A stretch of DNA of 64,000 bases, taken from positions 29,077,089 through 29,141,088 of the forward strand of contig NC_091219.1 of NCBI RefSeq assembly GCF_040958095.1. The letters are read 5' to 3'. The first letter of the stretch is position 1; every line of letters begins with the position of its first letter. Source of the stretch: Procambarus clarkii (taxonomy: Eukaryota > Arthropoda > Malacostraca > Decapoda > Cambaridae). The notes under the pieces were generated by a model. That model was not told the origin of the DNA. It made no database searches and saw only the letters and a program-made list of their open reading frames with translations. Below are positions 1,248 through 64,000 of the stretch, piece after piece. The translations under genes and the position numbers were made by a program.

Positions 1248-3851
1248 CAGGGGTCTCCAAACTTTTCAATGTAAGCGCCACATTATATATTTCCCATATT
1301 TATGCGGGCCGGAGGAATAAAAAATGAAAAAAAACAAAAAACAAATCAGTGCCAGTAATTTAATTTCCTCAAATATTAAAGTATAAACATGGAAAAATTC
1401 AAACATATCTTTTTGGAAAAAATCAGGGTAAACTAAATAGATTCCTGCCTTTAGTTTTATGCAACCAAATTAGTGTGACGAATGATACTGTAGTTTTGAC
1501 TTCAAAATTTCATTAAAATCAGGTTCCAGATTAGATGAGCCAATTGTAAGAATTGATTTCAAGTGATCATCAGACAAATTTGCTCGATAGTTAGATTTCA
1601 CATACTTCATTTTGGAAAAAGTTTGTTCACACAAGTATGTTGAACCAAAAATGGACACAAAACTACAAGCAAACTTTATCGAATTTGGAAACTGATCTGG
1701 CTGCAGGCATTTATAAAACTCAATCAGATTTCCTTCTCTATACTTATCTTTCAGTCTGTCATCTGCCTGGAGATCAATAATTTCCATTTGAAATTGAGTT
1801 GGAAGATTTTCAGCATTGCAGTCAAATGGATTATGAAAGAGCCTGATTTCATTTGCTTTGGCATCAAGGTCAGCAAATCGCTTCTGAAACTGTTTTTTCA
1901 AATCTGAAATTATTTCATTTGCAAATGAAAAAGGAAATTCAACTTTACTTCCTGCATGAAATTTTTCACAACATGGAAAATGAGCAAAATTCTTAACCTT
2001 CACCTGGCCTTCAAGTAGTGCAAGTTTTGCTCTGAATGCCTTGACATGAACAAAGTAGTCACTGATCAAATTTGTTTTGCCTTGCAATTTCAGATTCAAG
2101 TTATTCATATGACCTGTCATATCTGCAAAAAATGCCAATTTCCAAATCCATTCACATTCTGATAATAATGGCTGAGGGTTATTTTTCTCTGTGAGAAATA
2201 AATCAATTTCTAATCTGAGCTCAAAGAAATGCAGCAAAACCTTTCCACAACTAAGCCATCTAACTGCTGTATAATAAGGCAAGTTAACAAACTCCGCATC
2301 AATTTCTTTCAAGAAATCACGGAACTGGCGATGGTTGAGTGCATGAGATCTAATGAAATTAACCACAGAAACAACAGGTTTCATGACACAAGACATATCA
2401 ACATATTTTAGGCACAATGCTTGTTGATGGATAAGGCAATGCAGAAAAATGGGTTTTGAGCCTCCAACCTCACAAGCTGTTGTAATTTGCCCAACCAAAC
2501 CCTTCTTTGTCCCAGACATATTCTTTCCTCCATCAATTGTCACACACTGCACTTGTTTCCATTCCAGGTTATATTCTGTCATAGTTTTACTTAGTTCATT
2601 GAAAATGTCCTCTCCAGTTGTTGTGGTGTGCATGCTGTGAACTGATGCTAATTCTTGGTTCACATTAAATTCACTATCAACACCACGAATGAATACTAAG
2701 AGCTGAGAAGTATCACACACATCAGTTGATTCATCCAACGCAAGAGAATACCAACAAAATCTTTTTGTTTTTTTCCTTTATTTGCCGAATTATGTCGCCT
2801 CCTAAATCTTCAATTCTACGAGCAACAGTATTTGACCCAAGACTTATCATTTTGAAGAGGTTTACTTTTTCTGGACATACCTCTCCTGCTGCTTCCACTA
2901 TACACTCTTTTATGATACTACCATCAGTGAAAGGTTTTCCTTTTTTAGCCAACACATAGGCAACTTTGTAACTGGCTCTAGTTGAAGTTTCATTTTCAGA
3001 TTTTTTCTTACTGAAAACAGCTTGTTGAGAATGCAGACTGTGCTGAAATGATTCAAACTTTTTAGTGCGTTCTGCTCCTGTGATGTGAGAATAACTTGAG
3101 CCACGTTTAGATTCATAGTGCCGACGAATATTGTATTCCTTCAGAACAGCAACACTGTCTCTACATATTATGCATAAAGCTTTATCATTTGCTATCACAA
3201 AAAAGTACTTTATCTTCCATTCATCATTGAACCGACGGCACTCAATGTCCACTTTTCTTTTCTTTATCTTTTCCATATCTGAAAACATAAGGGTAAAATA
3301 AATGAAATAAATTCTACAGGAAAAAAACAGCTTGTATGTGGTGTTAAAAAGCATAGCATATTATTATAAAGTGGTAAATATTATGGCAACAGCTTTCGTT
3401 GATAAACTTAATGGTTATCATTTTAACTATTTTAAACATGCAATATTTTTGGCTACAATAGTATTATTGCTATTTTGTATAACTAAGATAAAGGCATTGT
3501 CAAAGTACAGAGAAAAGAATATTGTACAGTGTTTGTGCTCCCTGAAACGGAAGCAGCGAAGCCCCACTCGCCCTCCATCCCCACAATATACAGTTATACA
3601 CAACTGATTGGTTGTAATGCACAACACATACCTACCAGTATTAGTATCTGTGCGTCACACTATCGAGAGAGAGGAAAACTGACTCGGGTTGAGCGCCACC
3701 AGTCAGCAGCCCCAGCTTTGAATAATTCTGCGATGCCATTCGTACCATAATTATTTTTTCAAGGCCACCACACAGGGATTTGTTTGGAGGGCCGGATGAA
3801 ATTATGTGGCAGGCCGGATGTGGCCCGCGGGCCATAGTTTGGAGACCCCTG
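1248..3851 (-). mobile_element. hAT-superfamily DNA transposon, full length, terminal repeats and target duplication intact
   Basis: The element is bounded by perfect 16-bp inverted repeats, CAGGGGTCTCCAAACT at 1248-1263 and its reverse complement at 3836-3851. It is flanked by an exact 8-bp duplication, ATCTAAGT, at 1240-1247 and 3852-3859. An 8-bp duplication and CAGGG-type ends are characteristic of hAT elements. The 2.6-kb body carries one - strand transposase gene (3276-1470). Near-perfect ends and an almost unbroken frame suggest a recent insertion. Only one frameshift near 2760 visibly disables it. Confidence 0.93.
1470..3276 (-). pseudogene. hAT transposase (ZBED/GTF2IRD2-like), one frameshift
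   Basis: This encodes the cut-and-paste transposase of the surrounding element. The likely start is the ATG at 3276 (MEKIKKRK), which directly follows a splice-acceptor-like TTTTCAG. Reading leftward there is a BED/C2H2-type finger (ALCIICRD followed by RRHYESK), then the RNase H-like core interrupted by an all-helical region, then the C-terminal hAT dimerisation segment. Candidate catalytic acids of the DDE triad are all present: DESTD, TIDGGKN and CEQTFS. The frame runs from 3276 to about 2762 and continues in another frame to the stop at 1470, so a single extra base around 2756-2766 explains the break. Without it the protein would be about 600 residues, a normal hAT length. A sequencing error at this one site is possible. 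Related transposases have been domesticated in animals, but here the element ends show a transposon. Confidence 0.88.
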
Positions 3852-15412: not shown

Positions 15413-18400
15413 GTAAATGGACTCATTAAATAAAAAATACTTATGATTGGCTAATGTCTTATAAATAATTTATTGTGTTTGGGGACAGGCAGCCAGTGTA
15501 TTTATGCATGTTTGACTTATATCGAGGTCTAACTACTGAGCCGACCTAGGATGCAACCCCACAACAAGCTGACTGGGTACCTACTTATTTCTAGTAGGTA
15601 GTAAGTAGACCTAAGCATGTAGGGTATGTGAAAACCTGAAATACTCCTGAGAATGTAGTAAACACTAATATTAGCATGTATTACCTTGCTAATTCATGTT
15701 AAAGCATCTTCAATCCTTATAATTTAAGGTTTACCAGCATGCTTTGAAACTTGGTATGAAAACACTTGCTCTCACACCTCGGAATACACAGAATTCACTG
15801 CCGAGGCCAACCTGTACAATGCTGTAATTCAGATTAATCGTTATTATTTATAATTCTCATATTGTGAATTACTGTTAAGAACTTGCACAATATTTAATAA
15901 TGGAATATATTGTGTATACACAACTGTAATTAATTAATTTTCAGGTCACAGTAAAAGACTGAGTGACCGAAAAATTCTGTTGTTAGAGGGAGCTCCAAAT
16001 AAGCCATGGAGTCTGCCAGAGGAGTTCAGCAATCGTGTGTGCGCACTCAATGGCCACACTCGCAAGCTGTTCCATAAGCTAGGGGTATGGGAGCACATTA
16101 GACATATGAGAGCCCAGCCTGTTAAGAGGATGCAGGTATGTTTGGGTGAAAGTGCTTATAACATTTTGAATATGAATGTTGTGTATATAAACTATGAACT
16201 GTTGGTCTTCTTAAAGTCTATCATAACATTACTCGGCCTTCTTTGAGAACTATACCCACTCATGAGTACCATGAGAGATTCCCAAGGAATACTGGTATAT
16301 TATTTATTTTAATATGTATAAATTTATGCAAAGAGGTTGATATTAAGTTTTATCCAGGATTTTCTGTTTTTTGGGGGCAAACAAGATGTTGCTCAGGGAG
16401 GTCTGACATATGGTGATGACAATTTACAGGGCATGTGACCTGGTGTAGCCAATGGGAGGAGACCTCTGACAACATCCTTCATGTCCCAACAATAGGATAC
16501 CAATATGTCACACATCACAATATGTAATAGGGGCCTCGTAGCCTGGTGGATAGCGCGCAGGACTCGTAATTCTGTGGCGCGGGTTCGATTCCCGCACGAG
16601 GCAGAAACAAATGGGCAAAGTTTCTTTCACCCTAAGTGCCCCTGTTACCTAGCAGTAAATAGGTACCTGGGAGTTAGTCAGCTGTCACGGGCTGCTTCCT
16701 GGGATGTGTGTGTGTGTGTGATGTGTGGAGAAAAAAAAAAAAAAAAAAAAAATATATAGTTAGTAAACAGTTGATTGACAGTTGAGAGGCGGGCCGAAAG
16801 AGCAAAGCTCAACCCCCGCAAAAACACAACTAGTAAACACAAGTGTGCTGTAAAGAAAAGTGGTGTGGTGAGAAAAGTATAGTCATACCTTCACAGTTTC
16901 ATACCTTATGAAGCTGTATGTATTTATTACAGTATAACAAACTGAAGAGAGACAGGTATTATGGACAAATGCCTGAAATCACAGTTGTATTTATACAAGA
17001 TAACCAAATCACACATCAGAAAACGAAGAAACGAAGACGTTTCAGTCCGTCCTAGACCATTATCAAGATAATTCGGTCCAGGGTGGACCGAAACATCGTC
17101 GTTTCTTCATTTTCTGATGTGTGGTTTGGTCATCATACCTTCAGCCACATTATTGTGACTCGTCGCCTGAATTTAGTCCATTTTTTCTAATCAGTAGCTA
17201 ACTAAATATATTAGAGTATTCTAAATCAAGTAAAAAAGCCATTCCAGTATTAATGATTTTTAAAATAATCAAGAAATTACATATTACTGTTTACATTTGT
17301 GGATCTATAGGGTAAAGTCTGTCCATGCTAACATTTTAATAATCGATTACTGTATCGGAAAAAAGTGAGTATCAGGATAATATGAAAGTTGTTAAAACTT
17401 TATACTCAATTTCTACCAAAACAATCTTAATTTCAATGGTGTGGTTTTGAAGATTTTACAACTATTAAAAAATTACTTCTTATGGTTTTTGTTTATGTTG
17501 TTTGCTTGTAATAAATTATTATTTTGAGCTGTTGTATGTTAACATATTTTGATGATGTAGGTGTGGGAATCCTGTTCAGAGGCAATGATTACGTTTGATA
17601 ATGAGGACCAAGAAAATCTGGTGGCACACATTGTGGAAAATGATGTTATTTTACACTCCATCAAGGAACAAGTGCTGCAAAACATTGAGGTACAGTAACA
17701 CATTACTTCATTATTTTTTATTTATTTACATATCATTTTTACTTTAATAATTTTAGTAGATGATGCCCCGTGGACAGTGACACTTTGTCTTTGAGAGGGT
17801 TTCAGTCATGGGCCACATAATAGTGTATTCAATGGTTTAGTGTAAAGCTAAAATTTCAAAATTATACTCCTAGCAACCTTTCTTAATAATACAAAGTTTA
17901 CTAGTAATAATGTTTTAAGTTTAAATTTTTTTATAAGGAGCTTTGATCAAGAATTACTTTAAGATCTGAAGAACAACAGTCATATATGAGCTGTAAATGA
18001 TTTCTGTTTTATTATTTAAGCACTTTAAAGGGGAAAAAAATAAAAATGTAAATGCCACGGCATGGTAAAAGAATGCAACCGGGGTTGTGGGATCCGTGTG
18101 AGAGCAGTAGCAATCTCGGTTGTAATTCTTTTACCATGTCGTGGCTCAGTCGATTAAGGCGCATCTGGGATCATCCTTGATATAAGTTCGAACCCTCATC
18201 ATGACCCTTATGGATTTATTCATTTGATATATCACGCTATTGTGATTTCTGTGTGTATTGAAGTAAGGGCAAAGTGGTAGAATAGTTTGTTGACAGAGCC
18301 TGAGTGCATGGGGAAGTTGTGTAAAACCCCGGTTTGTGTCTCGAAGAGACTGCGGAATTCGTGTGAGAGCAGAAGCAATCTCGGTTGCAATTCTCTTACC

Positions 18401-43468: not shown

Positions 43469-43605
43469 ACATTTATCAAGTCATAGGTGAGCAACAGTCA
43501 AATAAATCACGACCAGAAGATCTCAGTTAATAGTGCATAACCTCGGAGGGAGAGGAGTAAGGCGGTCAAAATAAAGGTAAAATATAGTTGCCCACACGAG
43601 TGGGA

Positions 43606-45826
43606 CACATGGAGCTCCCAGACCTGTGTGGGACACATGGAGCTCCCAGACCTGTGTGGGACACATGGAGCTCCCAGACCTGTGTGGGACACATGGAGCT
43701 CCCAGACCTGTGTGGGACACATGGAGCTCGCAGACCTGTGTGGGACACATGGAGCTCCCAGACCTGTGTGGGACACATGGAGCTCCCAGACCTGTGTGGG
43801 ACACATGGAGCTCCCAGACCTGTGTGGGACACATGGAGCTCCCAGACCTGTGTGGGACACATGGAGCTGCCAGACCTGTGTGGGACACATGGAGCTGCCA
43901 GACCTGTGTGGGACACATGGAGCTGCCAGACCTGTGTGGGACACATGGAGCTCCCAGACCTGTATGGGACACATGGAGCTCCTAGACCTGTGTGGGACAC
44001 ATGGAGCGCCCAGACCTGTGTGGGACACATGGAGCTCCCAGACCTGTGTGGGACACATGGAGCTCCTAGACCTGTGTGGGACACATGGAGCTCCCAGACC
44101 TGTGTGGAACACATGGAGCTCCTAGACCTGTGTGGGACACATGGAGCTCCCAGACCTGTGTGGAACACATGGAGCTCCTAGACCTGTGTGGGACACATGG
44201 AGCTCCCAGACCTGTGTGGGACACATGGAGCTCCCAGACCTGTGTGGGACACATGGAGCTCCCAGACCTGTGTGGGACACATGGAGCTCCCAGAGCTGTG
44301 TGGGACACATGGAGCTCCCAGACCTGTGTGGGACACATGGAGCTCCCAGAGTTGTGTGGGACACATGGAGCTCCCAGACCTGTGTGGGACACATGGAGCT
44401 CCCAGACCTGTGTGGGACACATGGAGCTCCCAGAGCTGTGTGGGACACATGGAGCTCCCAGACCTGTGTGGGACACATGGAGCTCCCAGACCTGTGTGGG
44501 ACACATGGAGCTCCCAGACCTGTGTGGGACACATGGAGCTCCCAGAGCTGTGTGGGACACATGGAGCTCCCAGACCTGTGTGGGACACATGGAGCTCCCA
44601 GAGTTGTGTGGGACACATGGAGCTCCCAGACCTGTGTGGGACACATGGAGCTCCCAGAGCTGTGTGGGACACATGGAGCTCCCAGAGCTGTGTGGGACAC
44701 ATGGAGCTCCCAGAGCTGTGTGGGACACATGGAGCTCCCAGAGTTGTGTGGGACACATGGAGCTCCCAGACCTGTGTGGGACACATGGAGCTCCTAGACC
44801 TGTGTGGGACACATGGAGCTCCCAGACCTGTGTGGGACACATGGAGCTCCCAGAGCTGTGTGGGACACATGGAGCTCCCAGACCTGTGTGGGACACATGG
44901 AGCTCCCAGAGTTGTGTGGGACACATGGAGCTCCCAGAGCTGTGTGGGACACATGGAGCTCCCAGAGCTGTGTGGGACACATGGAGCTCCCAGAGCTGTG
45001 TGGGACACATGGAGCTCCCAGACCTGTGTGGGACACATGGAGCTCCCAGAGCTGTGTGGGACACATGGAGCTCCCAGAGCTGTGTGGGACACATGGAGCT
45101 CCCAGAGCTGTGTGGGACACATGGAGCTCCCAGAGCTGTGTGGGACACATGGAGCTCCCAGAGCTGTGTGGGACACATGGAGCTCCCAGAGCTGTGTGGG
45201 ACACATGGAGCTCCCAGAGCTGTGTGGGACACATGGAGCTCCCAGACCTGTGTGGGACACATGGAGCTGCCAGACCTGTGTGGGACACATGGAGCTCCCA
45301 GACCTGTATGGGACACATGGAGCTCCCAGACCTGTGTGGGACACATGGAGCTGCCAGACCTGTGTGGGACACATGGAGCTGCCAGACCTGTGTGGGACAC
45401 ATGGAGCTCCCAGACCTGTATGGGACACATGGAGCTCCTAGACCTGTGTGGGACACATGGAGCGCCCAGACCTGTGTGGGACACATGGAGCTCCCAGACC
45501 TGTGTGGAACACATGGAGCTCCTAGACCTGTGTGGGACACATGGAGCTGCCAGACCTGTGTGGGACACATGGAGCTCCCAGACCTGTATGGGACACATGG
45601 AGCTCCCAGACCTGTGTGGGACACATGGAGCTCCTAGACCTGTGTGGGACACATGGAGCTCCCAGACCTGTGTGGGACACATGGAGCTCCCAGAGCTGTG
45701 TGGGACACATGGAGCTCCCAGAGCTGTGTGGGACACATGGAGCTCCCAGAGCTGTGTGGGACACATGGAGCTCCCAGAGCTGTGTGGGACACATGGAGCT
45801 CCCAGAGCTGTGTGGGACACATGGCA
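43606..45826 (+). repeat. 28-bp minisatellite, about 79 copies
   Basis: Unit GGACACATGGAGCTCCCAGA plus CCTGTGTG, with variants CAGAGC, GCTGCC, GCTCCT, GCGCCC, TGTATG and TGGAAC. The unit has no stop in any of the six frames, so both strands show open frames up to about 670 codons. A block of rare variants near 43868-44030 recurs near 45268-45460, which indicates internal segmental duplication. It runs directly into a LINE coding fragment at about 45840. Confidence 0.97.
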
Positions 45827-58754: not shown

Positions 58755-59072
58755 AACTACAGGAGAGGAGCCAAGGGACAGAAGAGACGCAGTTCCGTGT
58801 GCAGATTTACCTAAACAGAGTAATATTTTGGCAAGGCGTCGGGCGCCAGTGTCAACACTGTGTGACGCATGTGAGGGGCAGGGGGGGGGGGGAGGGGCAG
58901 GGGAAAATATGGGGACGGGACAGTGAGGGAAAGAGACAGGGGAGAGAAAAGCAAAAAAGGGAAATTTCCTTGCCAGCTCGGTAGTAAGTAAAAGAATGAT
59001 TAAGGATCCGTTTCACATTGTCTCATACATATACATAACTACAGGTAGCCTACTCCCACTAGATGTATCATG

Positions 59073-59073
<1 letters not shown>

Positions 59074-59160
<87 letters not shown>
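59074..59160. repeat. (AC)n microsatellite
   Basis: Pure AC tract of 87 bp, directly before a LINE 3' tail. Confidence 0.97.
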
Positions 59161-59162
<2 letters not shown>

Positions 59163-59318
59163 GGGAGTGGCAGAGAGAGGCTGACTCCATACACAGTTTC
59201 AAATGTAGATATGATAGAGCCCAGTAGGCTCAGGAATTTGTACATCAGTTGATTGACAGTTGAGAGGCGGGACCAAAGAGCCAGAGCTCAACCCCTGTAA
59301 GCACAACTAGGTGAGTAC
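59161..59318 (+). mobile_element. LINE 3' tail only
   Basis: It matches the 3' part of the LINE at 46500-46657, from GAGGCTGACTCCATACACAG through TTGATTGACAGTTGAGAGGC to AGGTGAGTAC. It is followed by (AC)n. The coding part is missing and replaced by (AC)n on the left. Confidence 0.85.
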
Positions 59319-59332
59319 ACAAACACACACAC

Positions 59333-59367
<35 letters not shown>

Positions 59368-59369
59368 GG

Positions 59370-59650
59370 CGATCACCTATTAGGTGAGAGGAGACCAAAG
59401 GGACAGTACACAATGAAGGGGAACTGCCTACCTGTGACGACGCGAGAAAGAGACCTGGGAGTGGACGTAACACCTAATCTATCTCCTGAAGCACATATAA
59501 ATAGGATAACGACAGCAGCGTACTCTACACTGGCAAAAGTTAGAACATCATTCAGAAACCTAAGTAAGGAGGCATTTCGGGCGCTTTACACTGCCTACGT
59601 GAGGCCAGTCTTAGAGTATGCCACGCTATCCCAGACGTATTCCGACGTGA
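59370..59650 (+). pseudogene. CR1-like LINE RT-thumb fragment
   Basis: The frame reads TTRERDLGVDVTPNLSPEAH, ITTAAYSTLAKVRTSFRNL and AYVRPVLEYATLSQTYSD, matching the blocks in the 45846-46494 fragment. Here it stands downstream of a tail of the same family, so tail and coding part are in reversed order. Confidence 0.8.
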
Positions 59651-59962
59651 TTGAGATGAACTCAATCATGAGATGTTCATTTCATTCACGTCATGTACCA
59701 CCTCACCCCAAGCGAATATAAGCATTGGCAATACATGGAAAATTTGTCTTCGAAAATGTAAGGAGTGCTTTGCGAAACGCATCCCTAGGCGTCAAACCAC
59801 AATAAATTGTGAAAATGAACTTAGGAGAGTTAATTTTTCAACTTCCATCGAGAGTGAAGAAAACATAAGAAATATTGAGTAGATTCGTGTTAGAATCATT
59901 AATCTTACCCTTTCGGTCATATTCAACAACATATGTTTAGAAGAATGACTGCTACCAAAATA

Positions 59963-59964
<2 letters not shown>
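59651..59964 (+). repeat. unclassified dispersed-looking repeat ending at an (AT)n tract
   Basis: It carries a 13-bp-scale hairpin (TTGAGATGAACTCAA at 59651-59665). A 300-bp body ends in CTACCAAAATATA and a TA tract. The class is unknown; retroelement 3' sequence is plausible. Confidence 0.4.
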
Positions 59965-60025
<61 letters not shown>

Positions 60026-60030
60026 ATATC
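59965..60030. repeat. (AT)n followed by (TG)n microsatellite
   Basis: TA tract changing into TGTGTG. Confidence 0.95.
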
Positions 60031-60057
60031 ACGAAAATAAACACGTGATTAAGAATG

Positions 60058-60148
60058 TGACAATGTCAGACCACGGAGGAAAAATGAAACAGGAATTTCC
60101 TTAAGTACTTTCGTATATTAAATACATCTTCGTGGTCTGACATTGTCA
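60058..60148. repeat. hairpin with GACAATGTCAGACCACG arms
   Basis: GACAATGTCAGACCACG near 60059 and its reverse complement CGTGGTCTGACATTGTC at 60131-60147 are perfect 17-bp arms around about 55 bp. An (AT)n tract follows directly. Confidence 0.85.
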
Positions 60149-60365
60149 TATATATATATATATATATATATTTCCAAGCAACTGGAACTCGCTACAATAA
60201 AATATTATCTTTTATAATCGTTCCAAACAATTCTTGTGTTACCAAAATACAATAATTTATTTACAAATAAATTGTCAACATCTCTGATCAATATGTTTTT
60301 GGTTTAATTTTCTCTGGTCACTGCGTTAGCTGGTTTACATACTTAACGCCTTACTAGGGCAATGA

Positions 60366-60590
60366 TCCTGAGCCAAAAGTCATCAAGTATTTACACGACC
60401 ACTTACGAAACCTGTACATCTTTCCTCTATCATGACGGCTTTGTTTACAGTTATTACTTATTACTGCGAAACTTCACAACCCAAGGTTGTTATTGTTATA
60501 AACACCCTCGTAGTGCTTAGGAGCGCGTACACTGGTTAATACATGTAAATATGTCGCCAAGATTGAGGAAAGATGTACAGGTTTCGACAG
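60366..60590. mobile_element. foldback MITE, copy 2
   Basis: The ends CGAAACCTGTACATCTTTCC (60406) and the mirror ending at 60586 match copy 1 at 43254-43440. The interior (GTAGTGCTTAGGAGCGC) is reverse-complementary to copy 1. Outer sequence AAAGTCATCAAGTATTTACA matches the outward extension of copy 1. Confidence 0.85.
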
Positions 60591-60599
60591 TGGTGTGAG

Positions 60600-61160
60600 T
60601 ACAGATGTGTCCCTGACTGATGGGTGTGATGCTCGCTGGTCGGTGTCGTATCGTGCTGGACTTGTCTGGGGATACGACCTCAAGACGACTTGGGTGGTTT
60701 CTAATCAGAAACGTACGAACCCAAGCAACCCCCCTAGCCTATCACTAAGCTGAGGCATAGAAAACGTCAATATTACGATGCTTTAATTATTACAACTACG
60801 TTGCATTTTTAACGAACCAGTCGTTTCCGTAGAAGCTGGGACGGATTAGCTACAAGGACGGATTGGGAAATATGATCCATGTGTTTACAGACAGAATTCA
60901 CAACATTTAAGAAAATTTACAACTATGATTGTTACTTCAAACTGTTATGGTAAGTAAGAAGTGGGAGCCGCCGCCACCACTTCCGCACCGCCGGCTTCCT
61001 CCTCCCTGGAAGTCTCGCTATTTTAAGCGTTAAAGCTACAGTAGCGGAGTTTACTGTATATAAACTCGCTAAATACCTCAGGCACTCCAAGGTACTGTAT
61101 TGTAGTACCCAGCGTAGAGACCGATGGACCAAAACAAATTAAGATGGAAAAAAAGGAATT
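60600..61160. other. intergenic stretch
   Basis: A GC-rich patch at 60960-61015 contains GCCGCCGCCACC. No gene recognised. Confidence 0.4.
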
Positions 61161-61164
61161 TAAT

Positions 61165-61255
<91 letters not shown>
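61161..61255. repeat. (AT)n microsatellite
   Basis: TA tract with one AAAT interruption. Confidence 0.96.
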
Positions 61256-61256
<1 letters not shown>

Positions 61257-61334
61257 ACAAGGTCTTCTCTGAGTACTCTTTATTTTCTTCTCCGAGGCTA
61301 TGGGTCCCTACATTTGCACCAGAGGTGGTACCCC

Positions 61335-61337
<3 letters not shown>

Positions 61338-61421
<84 letters not shown>
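61338..61421. repeat. (AT)n microsatellite
   Basis: Pure TA tract. Confidence 0.96.
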
Positions 61422-61424
<3 letters not shown>

Positions 61425-61767
61425 GCTTGGAAGGGTGTTATATATTTTCTTGTTGAGAAATTGCGTGGTGGAGGTGACTTGGCAGTTGGCACCTCAGGTC
61501 CTGGTGGATCAGTGTTCCATTTCCTGGCGACCTGAGCGTAGTGGAGGCGGGGGGGGGGGGGAAAGGAAAGTTGTCACTGGGTTCTACAACGTCTCACTAG
61601 GTTATACAAGGACCTTCTGGGTTCCCAGTGTAGACCCACTGATTTATAAAAGGACCAATTGAGTTCTACAAGGACCCACGGGGGTCTTTGTAGAACTTCT
61701 TTCCCTTTAATTCCTTATTCCTCACACCTGTTTTTTTTCTCATTCCTGGCTTCTTATTCTTATTCAC

Positions 61768-62310
61768 GCCAGAAGGTGGTCCGGGGCACCAGAAGGTGGT
61801 CCGGGGCACCAGAAGGTGGCCCGGGGCACCAGAAGGTGGCCCGGGGCACCAGAAGGTGGCCCGGGGCACCAGAAGGTGGCCCGGGGCACCAGAAGGTGGC
61901 CCGGGGCACCAGAAGGTGGCCCGGGGCACCAGAAGGTGGTCCGGGGCACCAGAAGGTGGTCCGGGGCACCAGAAGGTGGCCCGGGGCACCAGAAGGTGGT
62001 CCGGGGCACCAGAAGGTGGTCCGGGGCACCAGAAGGTGGCCCGGGGCACCAGAAGGTGGTCCGGGGCACCAGAAGGTGGTCCGGGGCACCAGAAGGTGGC
62101 CCGGGGCACCAGAAGGTGGTCCGGGGCACCAGAAGGTGGCCCGGGGCACCAGAAGGTGGTCCGGGGCACCAGAAGGTGGCCCGGGGCACCAGAAGGTGGT
62201 CCAGGGCACCAGAAGGTGGCCCGGGGCACCAGAAGGTGGCCCGGGGCACCAGAAGGTGGCCCGGGGCACCAGAAGGTGGCCCGGGGCAGCACAAGGTGGC
62301 CCGGGGCACC
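61768..62310 (+). repeat. 20-bp minisatellite, about 27 copies
   Basis: Unit GGCACCAGAAGGTGGTCCGG, varying almost only at one base (GGTCC or GGCCC). No frame contains a stop, so six open frames of 170-230 codons arise. They are not called as genes. Confidence 0.97.
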
Positions 62311-62516
62311 TCCACCTGACGCTAGTAATGCCAAAGGTCTTGTAAGACCTTTAACGAAACACGGCAAGACGTAAAGGTTAAGTCCAATTACTAGTCTACT
62401 AACGACCGTACACCACCATTATACTATTCTCGTATCTCGACCTTTATCACTTTAACATTAATGTTTGGAAAACTCTCCCTTGTCTGCTTCTAAAAATATA
62501 TGAGTAATTATGGAGG

Positions 62517-62960
62517 GAGATTTCTGGTGTTTGTTGTGATGACGTCATTAGATGAGGGGGGAGATAACAGCCAATGAGGAAGTCGAATGATGGTGACGAC
62601 ACGAAACACAAGCCAATGAGGGGGAAAGGAAGCTGGTGAACACTTAGATATTAGCCAATGAGGAGGCGTATATACGATGACGTTATGAAGGGGAAATATC
62701 AACCAATGTGAGAGACTCGCTGGATGTTATGAGGTCTGGTAAATTGTACCAGTTAAAATGATCAGCGACGGAGGCATCGTCAGCTATGTACCAACCAATC
62801 ACTGGCAGAGGTGGCGGTGACGTCAGCTGTGGACCAACCAATCACTGGCAGAGGTGGCGGTGACGTCAGCTGAGGACCAACCAATCACTGGTAGAGGTGG
62901 CAGTGACATCAGCTGTGGGACCAACCAATCACTGACAGAGGTGGCGGTGACGTCATGCTG
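62517..62960. promoter_or_regulatory. ~43-bp degenerate array of alternating CCAAT and CRE sites
   Basis: CCAAT occurs on the + strand at 62571, 62613, 62655, 62703, 62795, 62838, 62881 and 62925. TGACG or TGACGTCA-like sites occur at 62540, 62594, 62678, 62818, 62861, 62904 (TGACATCA) and 62948. In six units the offset from CCAAT to TGAC is exactly 23 bases. The last four units are close copies; the left ones are strongly diverged outside the two sites. In metazoans these sites are bound by NF-Y and CREB/ATF. No transcript start is identified. Confidence 0.6.
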
Positions 62961-63078
62961 GGAGAGAACTACCAGTCAGGACAATGAGGGCGATGATTAC
63001 TCCATCAATAACAGTGAGAGGGAATTATATAGGAGGAGTGACGCCAGCAGTGATTATTTCCATTATTAATAATGTGTA

Positions 63079-63470
63079 CCACAGTGGTTAGTGTAGTGGA
63101 CTCACAGTCTGGTGGTTAGAGTAGTGGACTCACAGTCTGGTGGTTAGAGTAGTGGACTCACAGTCTGGTGGTTAGTGGACTCACAGTCTGGTGGTTAGAG
63201 TAATGGACTCACAGTCTGGTGGTTAGTGGACTCACAGTCTGGTGGTTAGAGTAGTGGACTCACAACCTGGTGGTTATAGTGGACTCACAACCTGGTGGTT
63301 ATAGTGGACTCACAACCTGGTGGTTATAGTGGACTCACAACCTGGTGGTTATAGTGGACTCACAACCTGGTGGTTATAGTGGACTCACAACCTGGTGGTT
63401 ATAGTGGACTCACAACCTGGTGGTTATAGTGGACTCACAACCTGGTGGTTATAGTGGACTCACAGCCTGG
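63079..63470 (+). repeat. 25-28-bp minisatellite resembling a tRNA D-arm region
   Basis: The left part has units GGTGGTTAGAGTAGTGGACT plus CACAGTCT (28 bp, some shortened). The right part has units TGGTGGTTATAGTGGACTCA plus CAACC (25 bp). The unit resembles the A-box half of a tRNA-derived SINE. The sequence after the array (CAGCAGTAAGTAGGCACC, 63494) resembles the SINE core. Confidence 0.9.
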
Positions 63471-63474
63471 TGGC

Positions 63475-64000
63475 CCCAAGTTCCGTCAACCCAGCAGTAA
63501 GTAGGCACCAAGGAGCAAGGCAACTGTTGTGGGGTATATCTTGGGGAAGCTCAATACTTGCCCACTTAAAGCTGCCAAGAACTTGTAAAACTGTTTAAGG
63601 TTAGACATTAAAATATTGGCCAACTAAGAGGTGTGACAAGCACTAATAATCTAGTGTATTTCTGCACCAGATTGTGTGGTGTTGATGACTTGGTGTAGAG
63701 CCACCTCCAGGCCCTGTAAACCACCGGTGTATTTACATGTCGGTAAAGTGTACACTACATATACTTATGTAGTTAAATGTAGTTTATTATCTTTATAGAA
63801 AAGGTTTCTTTGAAGATAAAATGTTTCAAACAGCGAAAACTGCGCATGCGCTCGGGTGAGCATCTGGGAGTAGGGTCCAAGACCTGGGAGATGCACGCAG
63901 CTCTCTACATAACCTCACCAATATATAGATATAAAATATTGGAAGTAAATCTCACAACCGTAGAGGTCAGCAGGTACAGAGGGGATATGATCACAACTTA
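63475..64000. other. end of window, SINE-core-like piece then unique sequence
   Basis: 63485-63535 resembles a diverged SINE core. The rest is AT-rich with no recognised gene; TCACAACCGTAGAGGTCAGC near the end is LINE-like in style but too short to call. Confidence 0.4.

Follow-up and report, generated by a model that had tools for sequence, protein, structure and literature searches.

The feature described here is a stretch of about 420 bases in which CCAAT and TGACGTCA sites recur at a constant start-to-start offset of 23 bases. It lies in a window of 64000 bases, the whole stretch of DNA that was analysed. The array contains eight CCAAT boxes on the plus strand, whose starts are the first positions of units A to D and R1 to R4 in Table 1. 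It also contains seven cAMP-response-element (CRE) sites, that is, TGACGTCA or a near match: the match is exact at 62540, 62818, 62861 and 62948 and has one mismatch at 62594, 62678 and 62904. All of these begin with TGACG except the site at 62904, which is TGACATCA. In six pairs the offset of 23 means that CCAAT and the CRE are 18 bp apart, and the 8-mer at +23 is exact in three of them and has one mismatch in the other three. These counts and positions, and the six pairs at an offset of exactly 23, are the same as in the initial annotation of this DNA.

Table 1. Sites, units and flanking words of the array (positions in the window)
Feature	Position	Strand	Remark
TATA-like word TATATTTT, left of the array; possible minus-strand core promoter	62493-62500	-	TATATT at 62500
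Leftmost CRE, TGACGTCA, palindromic	62540-62547	+	No CCAAT 23 bp before; next CCAAT 31 bp on
Unit A: CCAAT, 18 bp, TGACGACA; offset 23	62571-62601	+
Unit B: CCAAT with full NF-Y consensus	62613-62643	+	No CRE at +23; TGAAC at +24
Unit C: CCAAT, 18 bp, TGACGTTA; offset 23	62655-62685	+
Unit D: CCAAT (AACCAATGTG)	62703-62733	+	No CRE at +23
Decayed unit R0: CCAGT at 62749, CATCGTCA at 62775	62749-62782	+	Right part in register with the 43-bp repeat; partly by eye
Unit R1: CCAAT, 18 bp, TGACGTCA	62795-62825	+
Unit R2: CCAAT, 18 bp, TGACGTCA	62838-62868	+
Unit R3: CCAAT, 18 bp, TGACATCA	62881-62911	+
Unit R4: CCAAT, 18 bp, TGACGTCA	62925-62955	+
43-bp minisatellite, 4.2 copies, 90% matches; contains R1-R4	62778-62960	+	Called by TRF
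TATA-like word TATATAGG, right of the array; possible plus-strand core promoter	63026-63033	+	TATATA at 63026, TATAGG at 63028

Results

Composition of the array

The combination of the two sites at this offset is confined to the array. A CRE with at most one mismatch is found at +23 of 6 of the 48 plus-strand CCAATs of the window, every one of them inside the array, while the other 42 plus-strand CCAATs and all 58 on the minus strand have at least three mismatches to the CRE at that place. The CCAAT boxes are also unusually dense, with eight in the 440 bp of the array against three in the densest other 440-bp clusters on either strand. One extra CCAAT is located outside the array at 62384 and has no NF-Y flanks.

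The consensus for NF-Y consists of CCAAT with RR before it and SR after it. These full flanks (RRCCAATSR) are present in seven of the eight CCAATs of the array and in 9 of the 98 others in the window, counting both strands; the remaining one of the array matches three of the four flank letters. The four copies in the right half represent one event, so the count of 7/8 should be read as 4/5. The CCAATs of the array are predicted NF-Y binding sites.

The two halves of the array have a different appearance. In the left units the CCAATs follow each other at 42, 42 and 48 bp, and then 92 bp separate them from R1 across a decayed unit. The right half is a minisatellite, a head-to-tail repeat with a unit in the range of 10-100 bp, and it is the only part of the array called by TRF. 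Units R1 to R4 are nearly identical, with 22 to 28 of 30 non-site letters alike in pairwise comparison. The right half arose by recent tandem duplication, and the suggestion of the initial annotation that one unit had been amplified by chance is correct for these four units. Since they are tandem copies of one unit, their common spacing is due to descent and has no evidential weight; four of the six pairs, copied from one 43-bp unit, count as about one event. Such amplification is ordinary in this window, where 34 distinct minisatellite loci were found by one count (including the array itself) and tandem arrays occupy 12866 of the 64000 bases.

Surroundings of the array

TATA-like words are found on both sides of the array, and a further one lies inside it at 62669, so that they point to no single direction of transcription. 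The CpG observed/expected ratio is high at 62151-62950, yet 24 blocks of the window pass the same threshold, and this promoter sign was dropped as non-specific. A scan of 62300-63500 for bacterial promoters and terminators, a model of the wrong kind for this DNA, found nothing. No coding domain was detected with Pfam in the six frames of 59001-64000, where one match was far below the cut-off (E 0.46). No Rfam family reaches its gathering score near the array; in the whole window one does, a tRNA at 16533-16603. To the left of the array there is a short palindrome, AAAGGTCTT-GT-AAGACCTTT (62333-62352), which was considered as a histone 3' stem-loop and rejected for lack of an Rfam match. The predicted fold of the segment 62311-62516 is ordinary (z -0.15).

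Several other features of the window may be mentioned. The array is adjoined by a 25-bp minisatellite at 63094-63473, and its unit, GTGGTTAGAGTAGTGGACTCACAG, resembles by eye a part of a tRNA-derived SINE. A larger minisatellite with a 28-bp unit and about 80 copies is located at 43600-45824, where several frames are open on both strands. The segment 35942-36685 is a nearly perfect palindrome without a spacer (94.9% match to its own reverse complement over 748 columns), and the integrase zinc-binding peptides (Integrase_H2C2) encoded on its two strands are almost alike; it is either a fold-back element or an assembly artefact. On the minus strand at 1470-3360 there are remains of a hAT-type transposase, with Dimer_Tnp_hAT and Spin-doc zinc finger matches in two overlapping open frames.

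Comparison with chance expectation

The left 246 bp of the array (62517-62762) were compared with 40000 dinucleotide shuffles of the same segment. At least four CCAATs occurred in 1 of the 40000 shuffles, two pairs at offset 23 in none, and at least one such pair in 10; no shuffle had as many as three full NF-Y consensus sites. It is important to note that the motifs of these tests were picked after the array had been seen. A motif-blind test was made by counting pairs of exact 5-letter runs that are in register with the right unit. The left 246 bp contain three such pairs, a number reached by 24 of 10000 shuffles. Among 505 other stretches of 246 bp in the window, 41 have one pair, four have two and none has three. 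Scoring overlapping matches separately, which could mislead, gives five places; 5 of 5000 shuffles have as many, and at least two places are found in 19 of 620 stretches of the window. The motif-blind test is weaker than the motif-specific ones, which puts the honest level nearer to 0.002 than to 0.00003. The likeness of the left half to the right unit, by kinship or in shape, exceeds chance.

Retention of sites in the diverged units

The initial annotation proposed a comparison of substitution rates inside and outside the two sites. Here letters were compared, with R2 as reference. Units A and C share 12 of the 13 site letters with R2, but only 9 (A) and 8 (C) of the other 30 letters. The background agreement of non-site letters, estimated from random registers of the left half, is 8.05 of 30 (sd 2.46), and the values for A and C range from 7 to 10 of 30 across R1 to R4. 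The gapped comparison with R2 gave the same result, with no resemblance in the spacers and inter-unit DNA of A and C (P 0.20 to 0.81). Thus, outside the sites, units A and C agree with R2 at the background level.

Unit B is different. It shares 15 of 30 non-site letters with R2 (gapped spacer P 0.07), so that a common origin with the right unit may still show here. Units A and C have 16 of 30 non-site letters in common, with P 0.05 for the spacer and P 0.47 for the inter-unit DNA; their CRE 8-mers are alike at 6 of 8 positions and their spacers at 9 of 18. These two units may be related to each other by duplication, judging from these letters.

In the alignment of A, B and C all ten columns of the NF-Y consensus are invariant, compared with 5 of the 32 other columns (Fisher P 2e-6). 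The CCAAT itself set the register of the alignment and was omitted from a second test, in which all five NF-Y flank columns are invariant against the same 5 of 32 (P 6e-4). Each of the five TGACG columns varies across the three units. The NF-Y site is therefore held more clearly than the pair, and the invariant columns together with the consensus flanks are the clearest evidence for retention of NF-Y sites. The statement of the initial annotation that diverged units kept both sites and their spacing is true for A and C and fails for B and D, which have no CRE at +23. With the CRE missing in these two and with A and C possibly related, the evidence for retention of the pair is thin.

Discussion

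Possible regulatory function

We lean, with modest confidence, towards the interpretation that the array is a cis-regulatory element of NF-Y/CREB type, either promoter-proximal or an enhancer. The retention of both sites in two older and much-changed units makes a control element more likely than an accident. This retention is limited to A and C among the old units, which weighs against a regulatory pair.

The proposed element would be a same-strand array of NF-Y sites, most of them 42-48 bp apart, six of the eight having a site for a bZIP factor of CREB/ATF type 23 bp along. NF-Y and a bZIP dimer would sit side by side on the DNA, the former to open the chromatin and the latter to recruit a signal-dependent activator. 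The two factors may cooperate, and the element may drive transcription. The array would have expanded by tandem duplication, after which the older left units drifted except at the sites, chiefly those for NF-Y; the right unit would then have been re-amplified recently by slippage into the 43-bp minisatellite.

Partnerships of this kind have been described. In human cells the sites of FOS, ATF1/7, JUN and CREM tend to have an NF-Y-bound CCAAT nearby, while ATF2/3/4 are among the factors that seem to avoid NF-Y, according to one study (PMC7793273). The distance named in that study for the bZIP bias in ENCODE data is 10-12 bp (FOS at the TRE), not 23 (PMC7793273). For some liver genes NF-Y is said to work together with CREB (PMC11802806). 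No crustacean NF-Y/CRE array was found among the literature matches listed, which were judged by title and start of abstract and had most subscription journals outside their range; this is weak evidence of absence.

A stronger form of the interpretation is an invertebrate enhancer in which selection holds a rigid composite of NF-Y and CREB sites with an 18 bp gap, while the other DNA of the units drifts to saturation. The X2-Y spacing of MHC class II genes would then be an old and general NF-Y/CREB grammar, adopted later by the RFX/CIITA system of vertebrates. We consider this version speculative and quite improbable. If it were true, the X2-Y spacing would not be an invention of antigen presentation.

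Alternative explanations

The array could instead be a functionless minisatellite whose starting sequence happened to include CCAAT and a CRE, with the left units as decayed edge copies and the retention of sites partly due to chance. This explanation is doubtful and still carries appreciable weight. It agrees with the abundance of tandem arrays in the window and with the plain 43-bp copies on the right. In tandem arrays divergence is usually greatest at the edges, and this counts in its favor, as do the letters that unit B shares with R2 and the missing CREs of B and D. One of the two motifs occurs in the consensus of 4 of the 33 other minisatellite loci; both together occur in none of the 33, and this argues against it. 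It is also difficult to reconcile with units A and C, where the site letters are kept and the remainder is at background, and with the fully invariant NF-Y block of units A to C. A working element appears more probable than a decayed minisatellite, well short of certainty.

The array might also be a U3 enhancer that belongs to a mobile element, an LTR retroelement or one of another kind (a solo LTR, for instance), and it would then drive that element and not a host gene. In the U3 region of human LTR12 (ERV9), a unit of about 41 nt with sites for NF-Y, GATA-2 and MZF1 is repeated 5-17 times in tandem (PMC11853044), and the CCAAT steps of the array, mostly 42-48 bp, are close to that length. 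In units A and C a GATA word (62563 and 62647) precedes the CCAAT by 8 bp, a pairing that LTR12 also has and that may be due to chance here. In addition, of the seven open frames of the window that were scanned, four gave matches to families of transposon or zinc-finger type. Against this explanation, 62311-63090 occurs once in the window, and there is no retroelement domain in the six frames of 59001-64000 and no second LTR up to the end of the window at 64000. A mobile-element origin of this kind is improbable. In viral contigs, an exact stretch of 22 bases had no match, and the generic pattern CCAAT-18-TGACGTCA-12-CCAAT had one, without an array in the surrounding 251 bases.

It is hardly credible that the array is a member or homologue of the S-X-X2-Y module of MHC class II genes; the initial annotation drew a parallel in order and spacing to its X2 and Y boxes. 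On the minus strand six units have a CRE followed by ATTGG with 18 bp between, in the order and orientation of X2 and Y, and the X2-Y spacing of HLA-DRA, on which the spacing comparison is based, is also 18 bp. The parallel ends at order and spacing. Eight patterns for RFX half-sites (X1 and S boxes) or related sequences had no match in 62500-63000, so the array is not an S-X-Y module of this class. To our knowledge, arthropods have no MHC class II, and nothing ties the array to immune genes. In MHC-II genes the order, orientation and spacing of S, X, X2 and Y are conserved, and mutation of the X box strongly lowered the activity of an S-Y enhancer (PMC2278383).

If the regulatory interpretation is right, the array offers at one place a natural series in which the NF-Y/CRE units differ in age. 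The important letters of the sites and their spacing could then be read from the drifted and undrifted positions, and the array would test whether the MHC class II X2-Y spacing is a general rule. It would also mean that a regulatory pair of sites was copied through ordinary minisatellite slippage outside the LTRs of primates. If the array is a minisatellite and nothing more, there is nothing unusual about it.

Comparison with known systems

The promoters of cyclin A2 and fibronectin contain a single CRE-CCAAT pair, with the two sites within about two turns of DNA. The array likewise combines a CRE with CCAAT, and it has six pairs instead of one. Promoter VNTRs are minisatellites that carry transcription factor sites; the 43-bp tandem unit with its sites, whose copy number is open to change, is similar to these. 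Unlike them, it is adjoined by older, non-identical units, two of which have both sites. The array is like MHC class II X2-Y in the order and orientation of CRE and CCAAT and, relative to the HLA-DRA reference, in their spacing; it differs by having no RFX half-sites in 62500-63000, by being tandemly repeated and by being apparently of arthropod origin, perhaps from a decapod crustacean to judge by the repeat content.

The closest known architecture is the U3 enhancer of LTR12 (ERV9) in primates. The second site in the array is a CRE and not an MZF1 site, and there is one copy in the window, with no LTR recognised around it. Both are tandem repeats of CCAAT units of similar length, about 41 nt in LTR12 and a period of 43 (by TRF) in the array.
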